Assembly (NCBI GenBank): GCA_026989135.1
Contig: JALSJZ010000001.1
Span: 1 to 35,342 of the forward strand
Length of the DNA: 35,342 bases
Source of the DNA: Sedimenticola sp.
Lineage (GTDB): Bacteria > Pseudomonadota > Gammaproteobacteria > Chromatiales > Chromatiaceae
Reading direction: 5' to 3'
A program made the position numbers and the translations under genes. Below are positions 6,271-10,235 of the stretch, one piece after another. Position 1 is the stretch's first letter, and each line of letters starts with the position of its first letter. The notes below the pieces were generated by a model. The model was given only the letters and a program-made list of their open reading frames with translations, was not told the origin of the DNA and searched no databases.

Positions 6271-6923
6271 GAGAGGCAGAACTGAGCCAGGCATTGGCTG
6301 GCGGCATAGCTGAACTGAATCTACAGATCACAGCCAAGCAGCAGGATGCCCTGCTGACCTATATCGCTTTACTGAATCGCTGGAACAAGAGATTTAATCT
6401 CACGGCAGTACGTGACCCGGCTGAGATGATCCCGCGCCACCTGCTGGACAGCCTGTCAGTAAGCGCTTACATGCAAGGCAAAAGGGTGCTGGATGTGGGC
6501 ACCGGAGCGGGGCTGCCGGGGATACCGCTGGCCACTGTCCATCCCGATATTCAATTCACCCTGCTCGACAGCAATGGCAAAAAAACCCGCTTCGTCAGGC
6601 AGGCGGTGATAGAGCTGGGGCTGAAGAATGTGCAGGTAGAGCAGATGCGTGTAGAGGCCTACAGACCCCCTCAAAAATTTGATACCGTGATAACCCGCGC
6701 CTTTGCCGCGCTATCAGAAATTCTTGACCTCACCTCACACCTTCTCTCCCCCACAGGGCAACTGCTGGCAATGAAAGGCCGCCAGACACAGGATGAACTG
6801 GAGGTTGCAGATCTGGCAGGGCGATCCATTGAGGTGATCCAGCTACAGGTGCCGCAGCTGGAGGGGGAGCGATATGCGGTGTTGATAAAGGGTGAAGGTG
6901 GGCGGCCTAAAACCCTCGGTTGA
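6267..6923 (+). CDS. rsmG: 16S rRNA G527 N7-methyltransferase
   Basis: RsmG (GidB) methylates N7 of G527 in 16S rRNA using S-adenosylmethionine. The 218-residue product has the expected length. FNLTAVRD (about 43-50) and RHLLDSL (57-63) are family hallmarks, and the SAM-binding motif I is [16 protein letters not shown] at about 74-89, followed by [12 protein letters not shown]. It overlaps mnmG by four bases (ATGA), as in most gammaproteobacteria. In relatives, parA normally follows directly; here the next about 2.5 kb is accessory DNA. Confidence 0.96.
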
Positions 6924-6973
6924 AATTAGAGTTATGCTATCAAGTCTTTGTAAGCGATTGTTCAAGGGGAGAA

Positions 6974-7245
6974 TCAGAATACAAGGTTCACATCGCGTGA
7001 GCCGTGTAAAATACGAACCAGTTCGATGCCGGTGGTATTGGTTCGGTAGTACAGAACAGTCGACTGGGAAGCTTTTCAGATTCGGAGCCAAGTCGACTCT
7101 GTCGGCGCCGATCTTGGTAAACTCGGCGAGCTTCCGTGCTTTTTCCTCCAATCGCTCCAGGAAGCGGTCGGCGCTGGTAGGGCACTCCTCGGCGATATAG
7201 AGCCAGATATCGAGCAGATCCTGCTCCGCTTCGGGCGTTGCCAGC
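6974..7245 (-). pseudogene. parE: ParE/RelE-family toxin, broken by a frameshift and lacking a start
   Basis: The minus-strand translation contains TPEAEQDLLDIWLYIAEE and then LERLEEKARKLAEF, typical of ParE toxins. The frame stays correct through LKSFPV at about 7065, after which the expected C-terminus LYYRTNTTGIELVRILHGS and its TGA stop (6974-6976) appear in another frame. Only seven bases lie between the FPV codons and LYY where about twelve are expected, so a small deletion near 7053-7066 explains the shift. No ATG lies in frame next to the N-terminal motif (SPWLATPEAEQ), and the gene is detached from its antitoxin by about 290 bp instead of overlapping it. An intact toxin from this locus looks impossible. 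The family normally inhibits DNA gyrase or mRNA; that activity is presumed lost. Confidence 0.75.
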
Positions 7246-7532
7246 CATGGAGAGTGAAACGAAGGCTGTAGGCGTAGGCCGCTCGTAGCACACCCGTCGT
7301 GCCTTGCGCCAGAGGGGATGCAGCGTAGGCATCCGAAACGCCGTCTAGCCATTGCGGAAGCACTGTGTAGCCAGCAGCGAGCTTGCGATGATGTGGCGAA
7401 GCGGTGCGCACGCAGGGCGGCTGCGGCAAAAGGAATTAGCCGTCGTGATAAGCGAGGGCAAAAGGGGGGCTTGGATGTCCCGTTTTGCATACTGAGCATC
7501 ACGACTCACTTATGAAGTGACCAAAGTGGGCA
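7246..7532. other. Unexplained segment between antitoxin and broken toxin
   Basis: About 290 bp separate parD from the parE remnant, where related operons overlap or touch. The segment has no convincing gene. It contains a short hairpin, GGATGC and GCATCC arms around a 7-base loop near 7317-7335. Its sequence does not look like parD or parE. It could be an inserted intergenic repeat element or a degraded fragment of something else; I cannot identify it. Confidence 0.45.
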
Positions 7533-7793
7533 CTAACCAGCGCCCTCCAGGCTTTGCCGCCCCTTGGCTTTGATTGCATCGATATCGAGCGGTCTGCCAC
7601 CGCCCCTGTTCAAAGACTCCAGACCCTGGTCGATCTCCTTGCGCAATGCTTCCAGCTTCACGGCCCGAAGGGCATCCTGCTCCTCCAGAAGCCGCAGAGC
7701 CTCGCGAACCACCTCGCTCACGGAGTTGTACATTCCCTTCTCGACCTTTTGTTTCAAATAGGCTTCCAATTGCGGTGTCAGTGATACATTCAT
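7533..7793 (-). CDS. parD: ParD-like ribbon-helix-helix antitoxin
   Basis: An 86-residue protein starting MNVSLTPQLEAYLKQKVEKG and continuing with NSVSEVVREALRLLEE, the ribbon-helix-helix DNA-binding segment of the ParD/CopG antitoxin family. The C-terminal half (KLEALRKEIDQGLESLNRG) is the usual toxin-binding tail. Length and motifs are normal, so the antitoxin appears intact although its toxin is broken. The ATG at 7793 is the natural start for the family. Such antitoxins repress their own promoter; inverted repeats and an extended -10 lie at 7814-7852 just upstream. Confidence 0.88.
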   Translation of the reverse strand: MNVSLTPQLEAYLKQKVEKGMYNSVSEVVREALRLLEEQDALRAVKLEALRKEIDQGLESLNRGGGRPLDIDAIKAKGRQSLEGAG

Positions 7794-7813
7794 GAGTTCG
7801 ATCTCTTAAGCAG

Positions 7814-7852
7814 AATTCCAATAATGCTGGAATTATTATAGCAATCATTGCT
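7814..7852 (-). promoter_or_regulatory. parD promoter with two inverted repeats (probable autorepression operator)
   Basis: On the minus strand an extended -10 (TGCTATAAT, 7835-7843) lies about 42 bp upstream of parD. It is flanked by AATTCCA/TGGAATT arms separated by 7 bp (7814-7834), and the palindrome AGCAATCATTGCT (7840-7852) overlaps it. Two dyads over the promoter are what a ribbon-helix-helix autorepressor would bind. Binding is inferred. Confidence 0.5.
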
Positions 7853-7860
7853 AATGACTG

Positions 7861-8168
7861 TTATCAGCCATGACTGCCCTCGAATACTTTGCTTTGTCAG
7901 CTTTTTTTACACTCTGTTTAATCCCCGCTTCCAGACCCCTCTCTTTTTTGCCCTGTGGTGTATAACTTTTTGTTTTTACATTGATTATCGAATTTGTGTT
8001 TGGTGCAATACGTTGCGCTATTGCACCCTATGATGCCGGACAGATCGGCGGTGATTGGCAAATTGAGAATAAATTTGCAATAAAACTGTCAGAATTTTTT
8101 ACACCTTTACACTTTTGCACGGGCATGTGCCGTGCCTAACTAACTGAATATATTGGAGAATAGAAAAT
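7861..8168. other. Non-coding AT-rich stretch upstream of the PEP-CTERM gene
   Basis: No gene is supported here. Apparent ORFs lack ribosome binding sites and family resemblance. The stretch is AT-rich in 7890-8000 and 8060-8110, unlike the flanking core genes, and it leads into the sigma-54 promoter at 8169. An enhancer-binding activator of that promoter would be expected to bind somewhere in it; GGGCATGTGCCGTGCC near 8120 is a candidate imperfect dyad only. Confidence 0.4.
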
Positions 8169-8184
8169 CGGCATAATGCTTGCA
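8169..8184 (+). promoter_or_regulatory. Sigma-54 (RpoN) -24/-12 promoter
   Basis: CGGCATAATGCTTGCA matches the -24/-12 consensus TGGCACG-N4-TTGCA: GG at 8170-8171 and GC at 8182-8183 are separated by exactly ten bases, and GGCA and TTGCA are all present. Transcription would begin near 8195, leaving an about 80-base leader before the ATG at 8276. PEP-CTERM genes in other proteobacteria are known to be driven by RpoN with the PrsK/PrsR two-component system, so the motif fits its gene. Confidence 0.7.
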
Positions 8185-8275
8185 GCAAAGTGTCTTGTAA
8201 GTAATTGGTTATGCGCCAAAGCGGGCTTGGGTGCAAAGGGATGGCTGGAATAGCGGTCTAAACAAAGAGGCGATC

Positions 8276-8932
8276 ATGAATAAAAGACTAGGACTACTCT
8301 GCACAGGGGTATTGATATTGGGGCTGGCAGGTACAGCGCAAGCAACCTTGATTGACCGTGGCAACGGCCTGATTTACGATGATGACCTGGACATCACCTG
8401 GGCGGCGAATGCCAACATCAATGGCACGATGATGAACTGGGATACGGCCGTAGCCTGGGCTGGCGGCCTGAGCTACGGTGGCTATGACGACTGGCGGTTG
8501 CCGACCACACAACAACCTGATGCAAGTTGTGATAGTCAACATAATCCGGGCGGTGGTTTCCCCCTACAGGGTTACGGTTACAATTGCAGCGGTAGTGAGC
8601 TGGGGCATCTGTTCTATACCGAATTGGCTGGCACGGCTGGATCTTCGATTCTGAATGCCGCTGACCCGAATGGCTACTTGGCGCTGTTTTCCAATGTGCA
8701 GTCTGACTACTACTATTGGTCGGGTACGGAGGTTGCGCCCAAAACCTCCGACGCGTGGTTCTTCTATACCTACGACGGTAACCAGAACGGCTACCATAAG
8801 GACAATGATTTTTATGCCTGGGTCGTTCGTTCCGGCGATGTCGCTGGCGTACCTGAACCGGCAACACTGCTGCTTTTTGGACTCGGTTTGGCGGGTTTAG
8901 TTGTGGCGAGAAGAGACCAGAGCCAGCGTTGA
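8276..8932 (+). CDS. Secreted DUF1566 (Lcl C-terminal-like) protein with PEP-CTERM sorting signal
   Basis: The 218-residue product starts MNKRLGLLCTGVLILGLAG, a Sec signal peptide ending about AQA. Residues about 25-195 form a DUF1566 domain (LIYDDDLDITWAAN, YDDWRLPTT, YYYWSGTE, YAWVVRSGD). The C-terminus VPEPATLLLFGLGLAGLVVA followed by RR is a textbook PEP-CTERM signal, recognised by an exosortase that removes the tail and delivers the protein to the exopolysaccharide surface layer. ATG 8276 is chosen over an upstream GTG at 8231 because it has AGAGG about 6 bp before it and begins the signal peptide. The segment 8705-8832 resembles a DGR variable region, with Tyr, Asp, Asn and Ser at positions that are Asn in relatives as I remember them. 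No exosortase is in the window, so processing depends on genes elsewhere. Confidence 0.88.
   Translation: MNKRLGLLCTGVLILGLAGTAQATLIDRGNGLIYDDDLDITWAANANINGTMMNWDTAVAWAGGLSYGGYDDWRLPTTQQPDASCDSQHNPGGGFPLQGYGYNCSGSELGHLFYTELAGTAGSSILNAADPNGYLALFSNVQSDYYYWSGTEVAPKTSDAWFFYTYDGNQNGYHKDNDFYAWVVRSGDVAGVPEPATLLLFGLGLAGLVVARRDQSQR
8705..8832 (+). other. Candidate DGR variable region (VR) inside the DUF1566 gene
   Basis: In 8777-8815 the codons read GGT AAC CAG AAC GGC TAC, then CAT AAG GAC AAT GAT TTT TAT. Every codon after CAG except AAG differs from AAC or AAT only at the first two bases and keeps the third base C or T. Upstream codons (TCT GAC TAC TAC TAT, and TAT ACC TAC GAC) show the same bias. 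This is what adenine-directed mutagenic retrohoming of an AAC/AAT-rich template produces. DUF1566/C-lectin-like folds are known DGR targets. No template repeat is visible in the window, so it is a candidate only. Confidence 0.4.
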
Positions 8933-8954
8933 TTATTTGCTGATTCAGATGATT

Positions 8955-8983
8955 TGACCCTATCGGGTGTGTCAGGTTTTTTT
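8955..8983 (+). terminator. Weak hairpin plus T-run after the PEP-CTERM gene
   Basis: TGACCC, a TATC loop, then GGGTGTGTCA can fold into a short, bulged stem, followed by GG and seven T residues (8977-8983). It lies 22 bp after the stop codon and is the only terminator-like structure there. Hairpins just downstream of DGR variable regions are also known to aid retrohoming, so it might have had a second role. Confidence 0.4.
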
Positions 8984-8988
8984 ACAGC

Positions 8989-9162
8989 ATGGCACGTTAT
9001 GAACACCTGCCGATCTACAAACAGGCGATGGCCGTTTCTGGCATCCTGTCTCCCACGGCACTTGCACATCCTGCAGATCGGATGTTGCTATCCATTTTGA
9101 AGAGGCAGTCGCCGGATTTAGCCATTACCCTAAGACCTCAAGCATATTTCCAAAAGCCTAAT
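8989..9162 (+). pseudogene. Broken avd-like gene (DGR accessory variability determinant, four-helix-bundle family)
   Basis: The ATG at 8989 begins MARYEHLPIYKQAM, the very conserved N-terminus of Avd/four-helix-bundle proteins that accompany DGR reverse transcriptases. After codon 14 the match stops. Fifty bases later, at 9081, it resumes in another frame as DVAIHFEEAVAGFSHYPK, which lines up with the next Avd segment (family pattern xxVYLExVVRxFSRYHKY), then ends at a TAA near 9160. So a 50-bp insertion disrupted the gene and the remaining two thirds are missing. Placement directly downstream of a putative variable protein is the usual DGR order (target, avd, template repeat, reverse transcriptase). 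It is read here as a relic; recall of the family pattern is from memory. Confidence 0.55.
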
Positions 9163-9449
9163 GTTACGCATAACCTGATTTAACATCCGTGCTGTAATTA
9201 TATCCTTCTCTACCATCCATGAACCACTGGAATCATACCGCAAGCTCCAGGGGCATAACATCTGATTTACAGGTTATGTAAGCGTCTGATTTTGAGTGCT
9301 TTAATGCTGAAGTTTATATTCTGGCAGGGTTAACTGAGGATAATGTCGGCTTTTCCTCTTCCCTGATCAGCAGGCGGGATGTATGCTGCACAGTCCTGTT
9401 TTCAAACTGCCCGGCATTCCTGCCTGGCAGATCGTTCATTGATGAAGCC
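9163..9449. other. Non-coding gap before parA
   Basis: No gene is supported in these 287 bp. CATAACCTG at about 9169-9177 recurs inverted as CAGGTTATG at about 9271-9279, and ATCTGATTT-like words repeat nearby. A template repeat or reverse transcriptase fragment was looked for and not seen. The parA promoter must lie here, but no clear -35/-10 pair stands out. Confidence 0.4.
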
Positions 9450-10235
9450 ATGGCTCGAATTATCACTATTGCCAATCAGAAGGGTGGTGTCGGCAAGACG
9501 ACTACATCGGTCAATCTTGCAGCTGCCATCGCGGGCAAACGCAACCGTGTGCTGCTGGTCGATCTTGACCCCCAGGGCAATGCCACTATGGGTTGCGGGG
9601 TAGATAAGTACAAACTGAAAAGCTCATGTTGTGATGTGCTGTTGGGCGAGTGCCGTCTGCATGAAGCAGTGATTACACTGGACGAGATCGGGATGGATAT
9701 CCTGCCGGCCAATGCCGATCTGACGGCGGCAGAGGTGGGTCTGATGGATCTGCCGCTACGCGAGAAGCGCCTCAGCCTGGCGCTGGAAGGGTCGCAGGAA
9801 GATTATGACTACATTTTTATAGATTGCCCCCCTTCACTCAACATGCTCACCATCAACGCCCTGGTGGCATCGGGCGGGGTGTTGGTGCCGCTACAGACAG
9901 AGTACTATGCGCTGGAAGGGCTGACGGCGCTGATGAAGACCATTGAACAGCTCAAGCACAGTCGCAACCCGGATCTGCAACTTGAAGGCATTCTGCGCAC
10001 CATGCATGATCCGCGCAATAATCTTGCGGTGGAGGTGTCGGCACAGCTGCTGACCCACTTCAAAGACAAGGTATTCAATACGGTGATACCCCGAAATGTG
10101 CGGGTGGCCGAAGCGCCCAGCCACGGTCTGCCGGTGCTGATGTATGATAAATCCTCGCGTGGGGCGATCTCCTATCTGGCACTGGCCAGTGAGGTTTTGC
10201 GGCGACATGCACAGTGCCGTCCCGCCTCCGCATAA
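9450..10235 (+). CDS. parA: Chromosome-partitioning ATPase ParA (Soj)
   Basis: The 261-residue protein starts MARIITIANQKGGVGKTTTS, with the deviant Walker A KGGVGKTT at residues 11-18, followed by VLLVDLDPQGNAT (Walker A') and YIFIDCPPSLN (Walker B). These define chromosomal ParA/Soj, which dimerises with ATP on the nucleoid and moves ParB-parS complexes during origin segregation. Length is normal for the family. It lies 40 bp before parB, in the standard rsmG-parAB-atp order, although the rsmG neighbour is displaced by about 2.5 kb of accessory DNA. The ATG is chosen because MARIITIANQKGGVGKTT is the usual N-terminus. Confidence 0.96.
   Translation: MARIITIANQKGGVGKTTTSVNLAAAIAGKRNRVLLVDLDPQGNATMGCGVDKYKLKSSCCDVLLGECRLHEAVITLDEIGMDILPANADLTAAEVGLMDLPLREKRLSLALEGSQEDYDYIFIDCPPSLNMLTINALVASGGVLVPLQTEYYALEGLTALMKTIEQLKHSRNPDLQLEGILRTMHDPRNNLAVEVSAQLLTHFKDKVFNTVIPRNVRVAEAPSHGLPVLMYDKSSRGAISYLALASEVLRRHAQCRPASA

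Follow-up and report, generated by a model that had tools for sequence, protein, structure and literature searches.

Diversity-generating retroelements (DGRs) are known for generating binding diversity, and to our knowledge the fate of a DGR target after loss of its generator has been little studied. We describe here a gene followed by a relic of the DGR gene avd, both in a stretch of DNA from Sedimenticola sp. (assembly GCA_026989135.1, contig JALSJZ010000001.1, positions 1 to 35,342 of the forward strand; the whole stretch of 35,342 nucleotides is referred to as the window), and propose that this locus is very probably the retired target of a DGR whose machinery has been lost.

Among the Pfam domains found in DGR targets of human microbiomes and public genomes, two surveys give DUF1566 as the commonest (PMC4159848, PMC6642488); the window target has the same domain as these and adds a sorting tail of about 30 residues. 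The closest described case of degeneration is that of Thiohalocapsa PB-PSB1, where DGR loci with missing or pseudogenised machinery are reported (PMC10907252). These loci resemble the window in having a target with a variable repeat while key machinery is missing or pseudogenised, but there, within the one genome, each class retains a single complete locus, whereas no reverse transcriptase (RT) was found in the window genome. In addition, the Thiohalocapsa reads show that every locus except one is diversified, and the target genes encode putative conflict-system proteins, not an exported PEP-CTERM protein as in the window (PMC10907252). Membrane-anchored DGR targets are mentioned in PMC8144416, in the main text of which DUF1566 is absent. 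Degenerate DGR loci are therefore already known. In the literature searched we found neither a paper linking DGRs or retroelements with PEP-CTERM or exosortase, a weak negative as most subscription journals lay outside the search, nor a description of the repeated retirement of DGR targets.

The preliminary description of the window had seen a DUF1566 domain followed by a PEP-CTERM signal, and both are recognised above their cut-offs. The gene is built as follows:

8276–8932, plus strand: probable former DGR target gene, an intact open reading frame of 218 residues with signal peptide, Lcl_C/DUF1566 domain and PEP-CTERM tail.
8276–8344, plus strand: signal peptide, residues 1–23, read by eye from the sequence, with a putative cleavage site between ...AGTAQA and TLID.
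8369–8830, plus strand: Lcl_C/DUF1566 domain, C-type-lectin-like (PF07603, 6.5e-14, residues 32–185, above the curated cut-off).
8849–8914, plus strand: PEP-CTERM sorting signal (PF07589, 3.1e-7, residues 192–213, above the curated cut-off; TIGR02595 is also above its cut-off).

Relatives with intact elements provide the frame for reading this locus. With MARYEHLPIYKQAM, the start of the avd relic, and the next 50 in-frame residues as query against genome contigs, 532 stretches matched a pattern, among which a relative of the avd N-terminus is encoded at 31 loci. In one of them, L031 (WFXF01000090.1), the protein begun by the MARYEHLPIYKQAM relative is bAvd (PF22296, 43.1 bits, cut-off 40). 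An RT with the DGR motif and YxDD is present in 14 of the 31 loci, and 14 of the 31 contain pairs of template repeat (TR) and variable repeat (VR), 18 pairs in total, as found by a script that required 75% or more of the differences to be at A (or T); within these 14 loci, template-copy adenines account for 80–100% of the differences. In 12 of the 14 the VR is followed by avd, then by the TR, and then by the RT where the contig reaches that far (it does not in L036), the exceptions being L027 and L049; target and avd stand in the same order in the window.

The window gene shares its build with the targets upstream of avd in L025, L026, L030, L031 and L051. In an alignment of the window with eight relatives (A2), picked for an intact scaffold of the YWSG kind, Lcl_C is found in all nine sequences, PEP-CTERM in seven and IPTL-CTERM in one. 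In PEP-CTERM-type targets the variable repeat is internal and is followed by about 30 residues of sorting tail, while the target of L036, L037, L042, L045 and L052, like one of the targets of L047 and one of those of L049, stops at most two residues from the scaffold. L031, L025, L030 and L051 are like the window in target build, in the 41-residue scaffold and in the kind of avd N-terminus, but differ from it in possessing a template, a full-length avd and an RT with a C-terminal MutS domain I; L026 is like these intact bAvd DGRs except for an in-frame stop in avd. The MutS domain I (PF01624) is fused to the C-terminus of all eight DGR RTs inspected (L025, L026, L027, L030, L031, L038, L051 and L055). 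A MutS-like part in DGRs is known from earlier surveys, and our literature search found no paper on a fusion of RT with MutS domain I in DGRs.

The variable repeat had been placed at 8705–8832 in the preliminary description, which is nearly exact, since alignment with the template of another species gives the following:

8709–8838, plus strand: variable-repeat-like stretch, 80% identical to the L031 template repeat (E 1.4e-27), with a 41-codon scaffold at 8714–8836.
8741–8806, plus strand: core, with 15 differences from the L031 template, of which 13 are at template adenines and two, at third codon positions, are not.
8816–8838, plus strand: 3' end of the variable repeat, with GGC at 8834–8836 where the L031 and L038 templates have GGA; a putative initiation of mutagenic homing (IMH) element.

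Positions 8714–8836 encode YWSGTEVAPKTSDAWFFYTYDGNQNGYHKDNDFYAWVVRSG, in register with YWSGTEYAPNTNNAWNFNTNNGNQNNNNKNNEFYAWAVRSG of the L031 template, and the 13 adenine-site differences of the core are all in codon positions 1 or 2. Over the 41 codons the window differs from the L031 template at 16 of 41 adenines and at 9 of 82 other bases (Fisher p 4e-4), whereas in the reverse control, with the window taken as template, differences occur at 1 of 26 adenines and at 24 of 97 other bases. The excess is also seen against the templates of L038 (p 1e-3) and L025 (p 0.03). An excess of differences at adenine positions had been named beforehand as a check on DGR history, and finding it against templates of other species favours a past system. 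In all five loci for which both were compared, the window resembles the template more than the variable repeat, with an identity of 0.80 to the L031 template against 0.74 to the L031 variable repeat, although the margin is only 0.01–0.02 in L030 and L051. GGC at 8834–8836 is common to the window and the L031 variable repeat; a change from GGA to GGC as the mark of most TR/VR pairs was dropped, as the change is often at the next codon and there is none there in L025 and L036. Within the window itself the TR/VR script found no adenine-biased repeat pairs.

A further test makes use of the third bases of the 14 AAY codons of the template, of which 2 of 14 differ in the window compared with 73 of 143 in controls (p 0.008). 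Ten homologous stretches served as controls; they come from nine loci and show no avd and no DGR RT in the surrounding 2.0–3.7 kb, a search in which L031 was the positive control. They represent 10 of 32 non-template rows, pooled (two from L116, and one each from L019, L111, L130, L107, L110, L106, L108 and L112); L019 was retained despite a weak likeness (69%) of its gene to the L031 template. The rows left out are the window, L014 (treated separately), 13 variable repeats with their own template, the avd-linked L027, L039, L042, L043 and L052, and two rows for a second gene of L037, which has both a TR/VR pair and an RT; in these two rows the third bases are changed at 10 of 18 and 10 of 17 positions. 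Outside the first two AAY bases, 12 of 95 sites distinguish the window from its best template, the lowest value among the original rows without their own template; the stub-linked L046, added later, is lower (10 of 93). Taken together, the scaffold, the closeness to templates and the core differences mainly at template adenines support the view that the window gene was diversified by a DGR.

The avd relic begins 56 bp past the target stop codon:

8989–9030, plus strand: avd pseudogene, codons 1–14, recognised with a profile of Avd proteins; MARYEHLPIYKQAM begins at 8989.
9031–9080, plus strand: insertion of 50 bp that shifts the avd frame, placed by the joining of avd codons 14 and 15.
9081–9134, plus strand: avd pseudogene, codons 15–32 (DVAIHFEEAVAGFSHYPK), recognised with the Avd profile in a frame that differs from that of codons 1–14.

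The profile, built from 20 Avd proteins of at least 90 residues, matches the window twice, with its positions 1–18 from 8989 (28.5 bits) and with its positions 15–32 in the other frame (15.4 bits); past codon 32, at 9134, nothing further of avd was recognised. Thus the Avd N-terminus noticed next to the target in the preliminary description is upheld, as is the relic itself, but the relic ends near 9134 and not at 9162, and more of avd remains than had been seen, codons 15–32 lying in the other frame; in the frame read earlier, it is the 50-bp insertion that comes after codon 14. A chance avd match was considered and rejected, as the second, out-of-frame piece follows in the proper order.

The machinery itself is missing from the genome in question, a draft of 2.6 Mb in 189 contigs that is 98.9% complete. 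A profile built from eight DGR RTs finds no DGR RT in it, and has a lone match, to its MutS part, in an 861-codon frame on contig C162; as the RTs of the profile carry a C-terminal MutS domain I, this frame is most simply the chromosomal mutS. A single 61-codon fragment with three stops, under the cut-off, is the only match to PF00078 in the genome, and on this ground another RT as a source in trans was rejected. PF05635 has no match in the genome, a result that is uninformative because the control is likewise without a match. Beyond matches of chance length, there is no second copy of the window stretch in the genome, nor any match to the L031 template other than the window. No template was found in five congeners, and none of them has a full-scoring DGR RT; weak RT-like matches occur in G004 (39.5 bits) and G002 (35.1 bits) and the others have mutS-like matches only. 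The same profile is strong in the family members G010, G029 and G033 (196–230 bits) and matches G032 in two pieces (112 and 97 bits), and in all four an avd-like frame lies near the RT. As no DGR RT is found in its own genome, we class the locus as a remnant, namely a former DGR target rather than a complete DGR. The earlier suggestion that it was or is a DGR target holds for the past, given the build of the intact relatives and the adenine-directed imprint, but is not supported as regards present service in trans; the search for an RT and a template that had been proposed as a check found neither, which argues against an active system.

Several points weigh against the proposal. Against four further, more distant templates the adenine excess has p values of 0.06–0.19 and is not significant alone; such weaker values may be expected if divergence adds to the imprint, but are no evidence by themselves. 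All templates compared come from other species, so that some of the non-adenine differences simply reflect divergence. Overall distance is greater for the control homologues, and this by itself raises third-base differences and weakens the third-base test on its own. The bAvd model finds no match in the genome, but the model also misses the short relic of the window, and in its control it matched in 1 of 14 named genomes, under the cut-off. A Foldseek search with the structural model of the target described below gave a best E of 3.3e-3 and none below 0.001. Finally, the draft state of the assembly makes the absence of RT and template strong but not proof.

One rival view, in favour of which the draft state counts, is that the target is still active, served in trans by an RT and template in an unassembled or unbinned part of the genome or in a different strain of the population. 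Two alleles of the site at which the locus lies are present in the assembly (see below), and DGRs acting in trans, as well as strain variants with an intact RT, are described for Thiohalocapsa PB-PSB1 (PMC10907252). Nevertheless we consider it very improbable, because a genome of such completeness has neither DGR RT nor template, because a template and RT in cis would be expected directly after avd, where parA is found instead, and because nine non-adenine differences from the nearest template suggest a time without rewriting, although that template is from another species. That the gene is an ordinary DUF1566/PEP-CTERM protein without DGR history, its avd match being due to chance, strikes us as hardly credible. 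Homologues do occur in 20 of 320 other genomes of the class searched, and the ten homologous stretches without nearby avd or DGR RT have third bases unlike the templates; however, two avd pieces in order and placed after the target as in intact DGRs, the low count of differences outside the first two AAY bases, under which only L046 falls among template-less stretches, and the asymmetry of the reverse-direction control (1 of 26 against 24 of 97) all speak against it.

A more serious alternative, though still an unlikely one, is that the locus never had an RT or template of its own, target and avd stub having been copied or transferred as the remote target of a DGR that was later lost or was kept by the donor. 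In favour of this, the site of the insertion is variable, avd similarity stops within codons 14–34 in 7 of the 31 avd loci, and the genomes of L029, L043 and L048 have a DGR RT elsewhere. On the other hand, no DGR RT is found in the window genome, random decay together with a search that requires the avd N-terminus could yield short stubs, the 50-bp insertion within avd fits ordinary decay as well, and no target is seen upstream of the L048 stub. If the locus is a retired target, as we favour, an error-prone DGR RT would once have written adenine-mutated copies of an L031/L038-type template into 8709–8838, and cells would thereby have displayed differing binding faces. The machinery would then have been lost, in the lineage itself or in a donor, freezing the last binding face. 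Production and export of the protein probably continue, as do its cleavage by exosortase and its retention in the envelope or matrix. The readable imprint on a frozen target suggests that lineages which have lost the machinery hold on to a diversified binder, and the simple test of whether third bases are kept while template adenines are changed could reveal retired targets missed by RT-based surveys.

For the structure of the protein, an AlphaFold model from 19 sequences (pLDDT 78, pTM 0.72) was used, one from nine sequences (pLDDT 50) being set aside. Its best match in the PDB is the C-terminal domain of Legionella Lcl (8q4e; Z 10.9, 112 aligned residues, root-mean-square deviation 2.7), followed by Bdellovibrio Bd2740 and then by many C-type lectins; we know of no DGR link for Lcl. 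The variable repeat is thus predicted to sit in a C-type-lectin-like fold, which fits with the family match. An exosortase gene is present in the genome, on contig C125 (E 1.7e-75, above the cut-off), and the sorting tail accordingly has its enzyme. A link of a DGR target to PEP-CTERM/exosortase sorting, if true, would tie hypervariation to display in the biofilm matrix or envelope.

Other loci bear on whether such retirement recurs. The avd similarity stops within codons 14–34 in L028, L033, L040, L041 (by eye), L042, L044 and L048, in a locus search that requires the N-terminus and could therefore favour short stubs; it looks as though avd were frequently truncated within its first third and the target retained. 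Genome-wide, DGR RTs were searched at E 1e-12 for 11 of the 31, selected because avd is short or because no RT lies nearby; three of these genomes (L029, L043 and L048) have one elsewhere and none was found in the other eight, the completeness of these genomes not being given. Family scans upstream of stubs cover eight of nine non-window loci, L048 being omitted as no target is seen there. An Lcl_C frame is present in all eight (L028, L029, L033, L040, L041, L042, L044 and L046), above the cut-off in six, and PEP-CTERM is above the cut-off only in L033 and just below it in L041. Third-base differences over the 41-codon stretches are low in L033 (2/15), L041 (2/14), L042 (1/14), L046 (2/15), L039 (2/14) and L043 (3/14). 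A speculative reading, which we hold to be less likely than not, is that a whole DGR branch diversifies exosortase-sorted surface lectins, and that its bacteria explore binding space with the element, then repeatedly lose template and RT and keep a frozen binder with an avd scar. The window would possibly then be one of these recurrent frozen binders, known by its adenine-site differences and kept third bases.

Two further loci deserve mention here. In G048 a DUF1566 protein with the variable-repeat scaffold (L014/L136, C54:66105–66761) has a PEP-CTERM signal just under the cut-off, third-base differences of 1/14 and 78% identity to the L031 template (E 3.7e-24), while the genome shows no DGR RT and the 8 kb examined around it no avd; judged from its sequence, L014 is another retired target. 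At the end of contig C14 of G003 lies a 41-residue C-terminal piece of a related target (L142) with 78% DNA identity to 8806–8928 and, where the variable repeat ends, an in-frame stop.

Upstream of the target gene is one candidate regulatory element:

8169–8184, plus strand: sigma-54-like -24/-12 site, 92 bp before the start codon, a pattern match of putative function.

The pattern was drawn up after the site was seen and matches once in the window against 0.64 expected by chance; 25 of 2000 shuffles of the upstream stretch equal the score of the site. Similar sites lie 92–96 bp before the targets of L026, L030 and L039, 74 bp before that of L043 and 177 bp before that of L025; those in L051, L027 and L014 are weaker or farther, and none was found upstream of the L031 target. 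Scans of 7900–9460 for sigma-70 promoters and terminators gave counts not above those of shuffles, and a search of 6800–9500 against Rfam gave no match.

Target and avd relic are both contained in a larger insert:

6927–9299, no strand assigned: insert of 2,373 bp between gidB (rsmG) and parA, holding the target and avd relic and delimited by comparison with congeners.

Pfam confirms gidB (PF02527), parA and parB. The matching gidB and parA-side flanks are 54–188 bases apart in G001, G003, G004 and G005 and are on two contigs in G002. Another contig of the same assembly, C160 (L101, 1–8978), starts with window positions 6810–6926 (identical, the gidB end) and ends with 9300–9411 (98%). Between these it contains type I restriction-modification genes of hsdR, hsdM and hsdS type and a Schlafen/AlbA_2 protein, only the flanks being common with the window. 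As C160 shares the flanks with other content between them, the gidB–parA interval is a variable site and the assembly has two alleles of it, most simply from two strains. The longest direct repeat at the insert ends is 8 bases and likely due to chance.

The remainder of the insert contains a ParD-like antitoxin gene (7533–7793, minus strand; PF03693, 1.6e-11), which adjoins a dispersed repeat of about 280 bp (7234–7511); copies of this repeat, partial or full, are numerous in G003, and some are also present in G001 and G002. By eye, the toxin partner of the antitoxin seems truncated by this repeat; the frame tried gave no Pfam match above the cut-off. Overlapping the last bases of the avd relic and running on beyond it, a 108-bp stretch at 9129–9236 without a match in Rfam is 83% identical to C12:10998–11106 of the congener G002.
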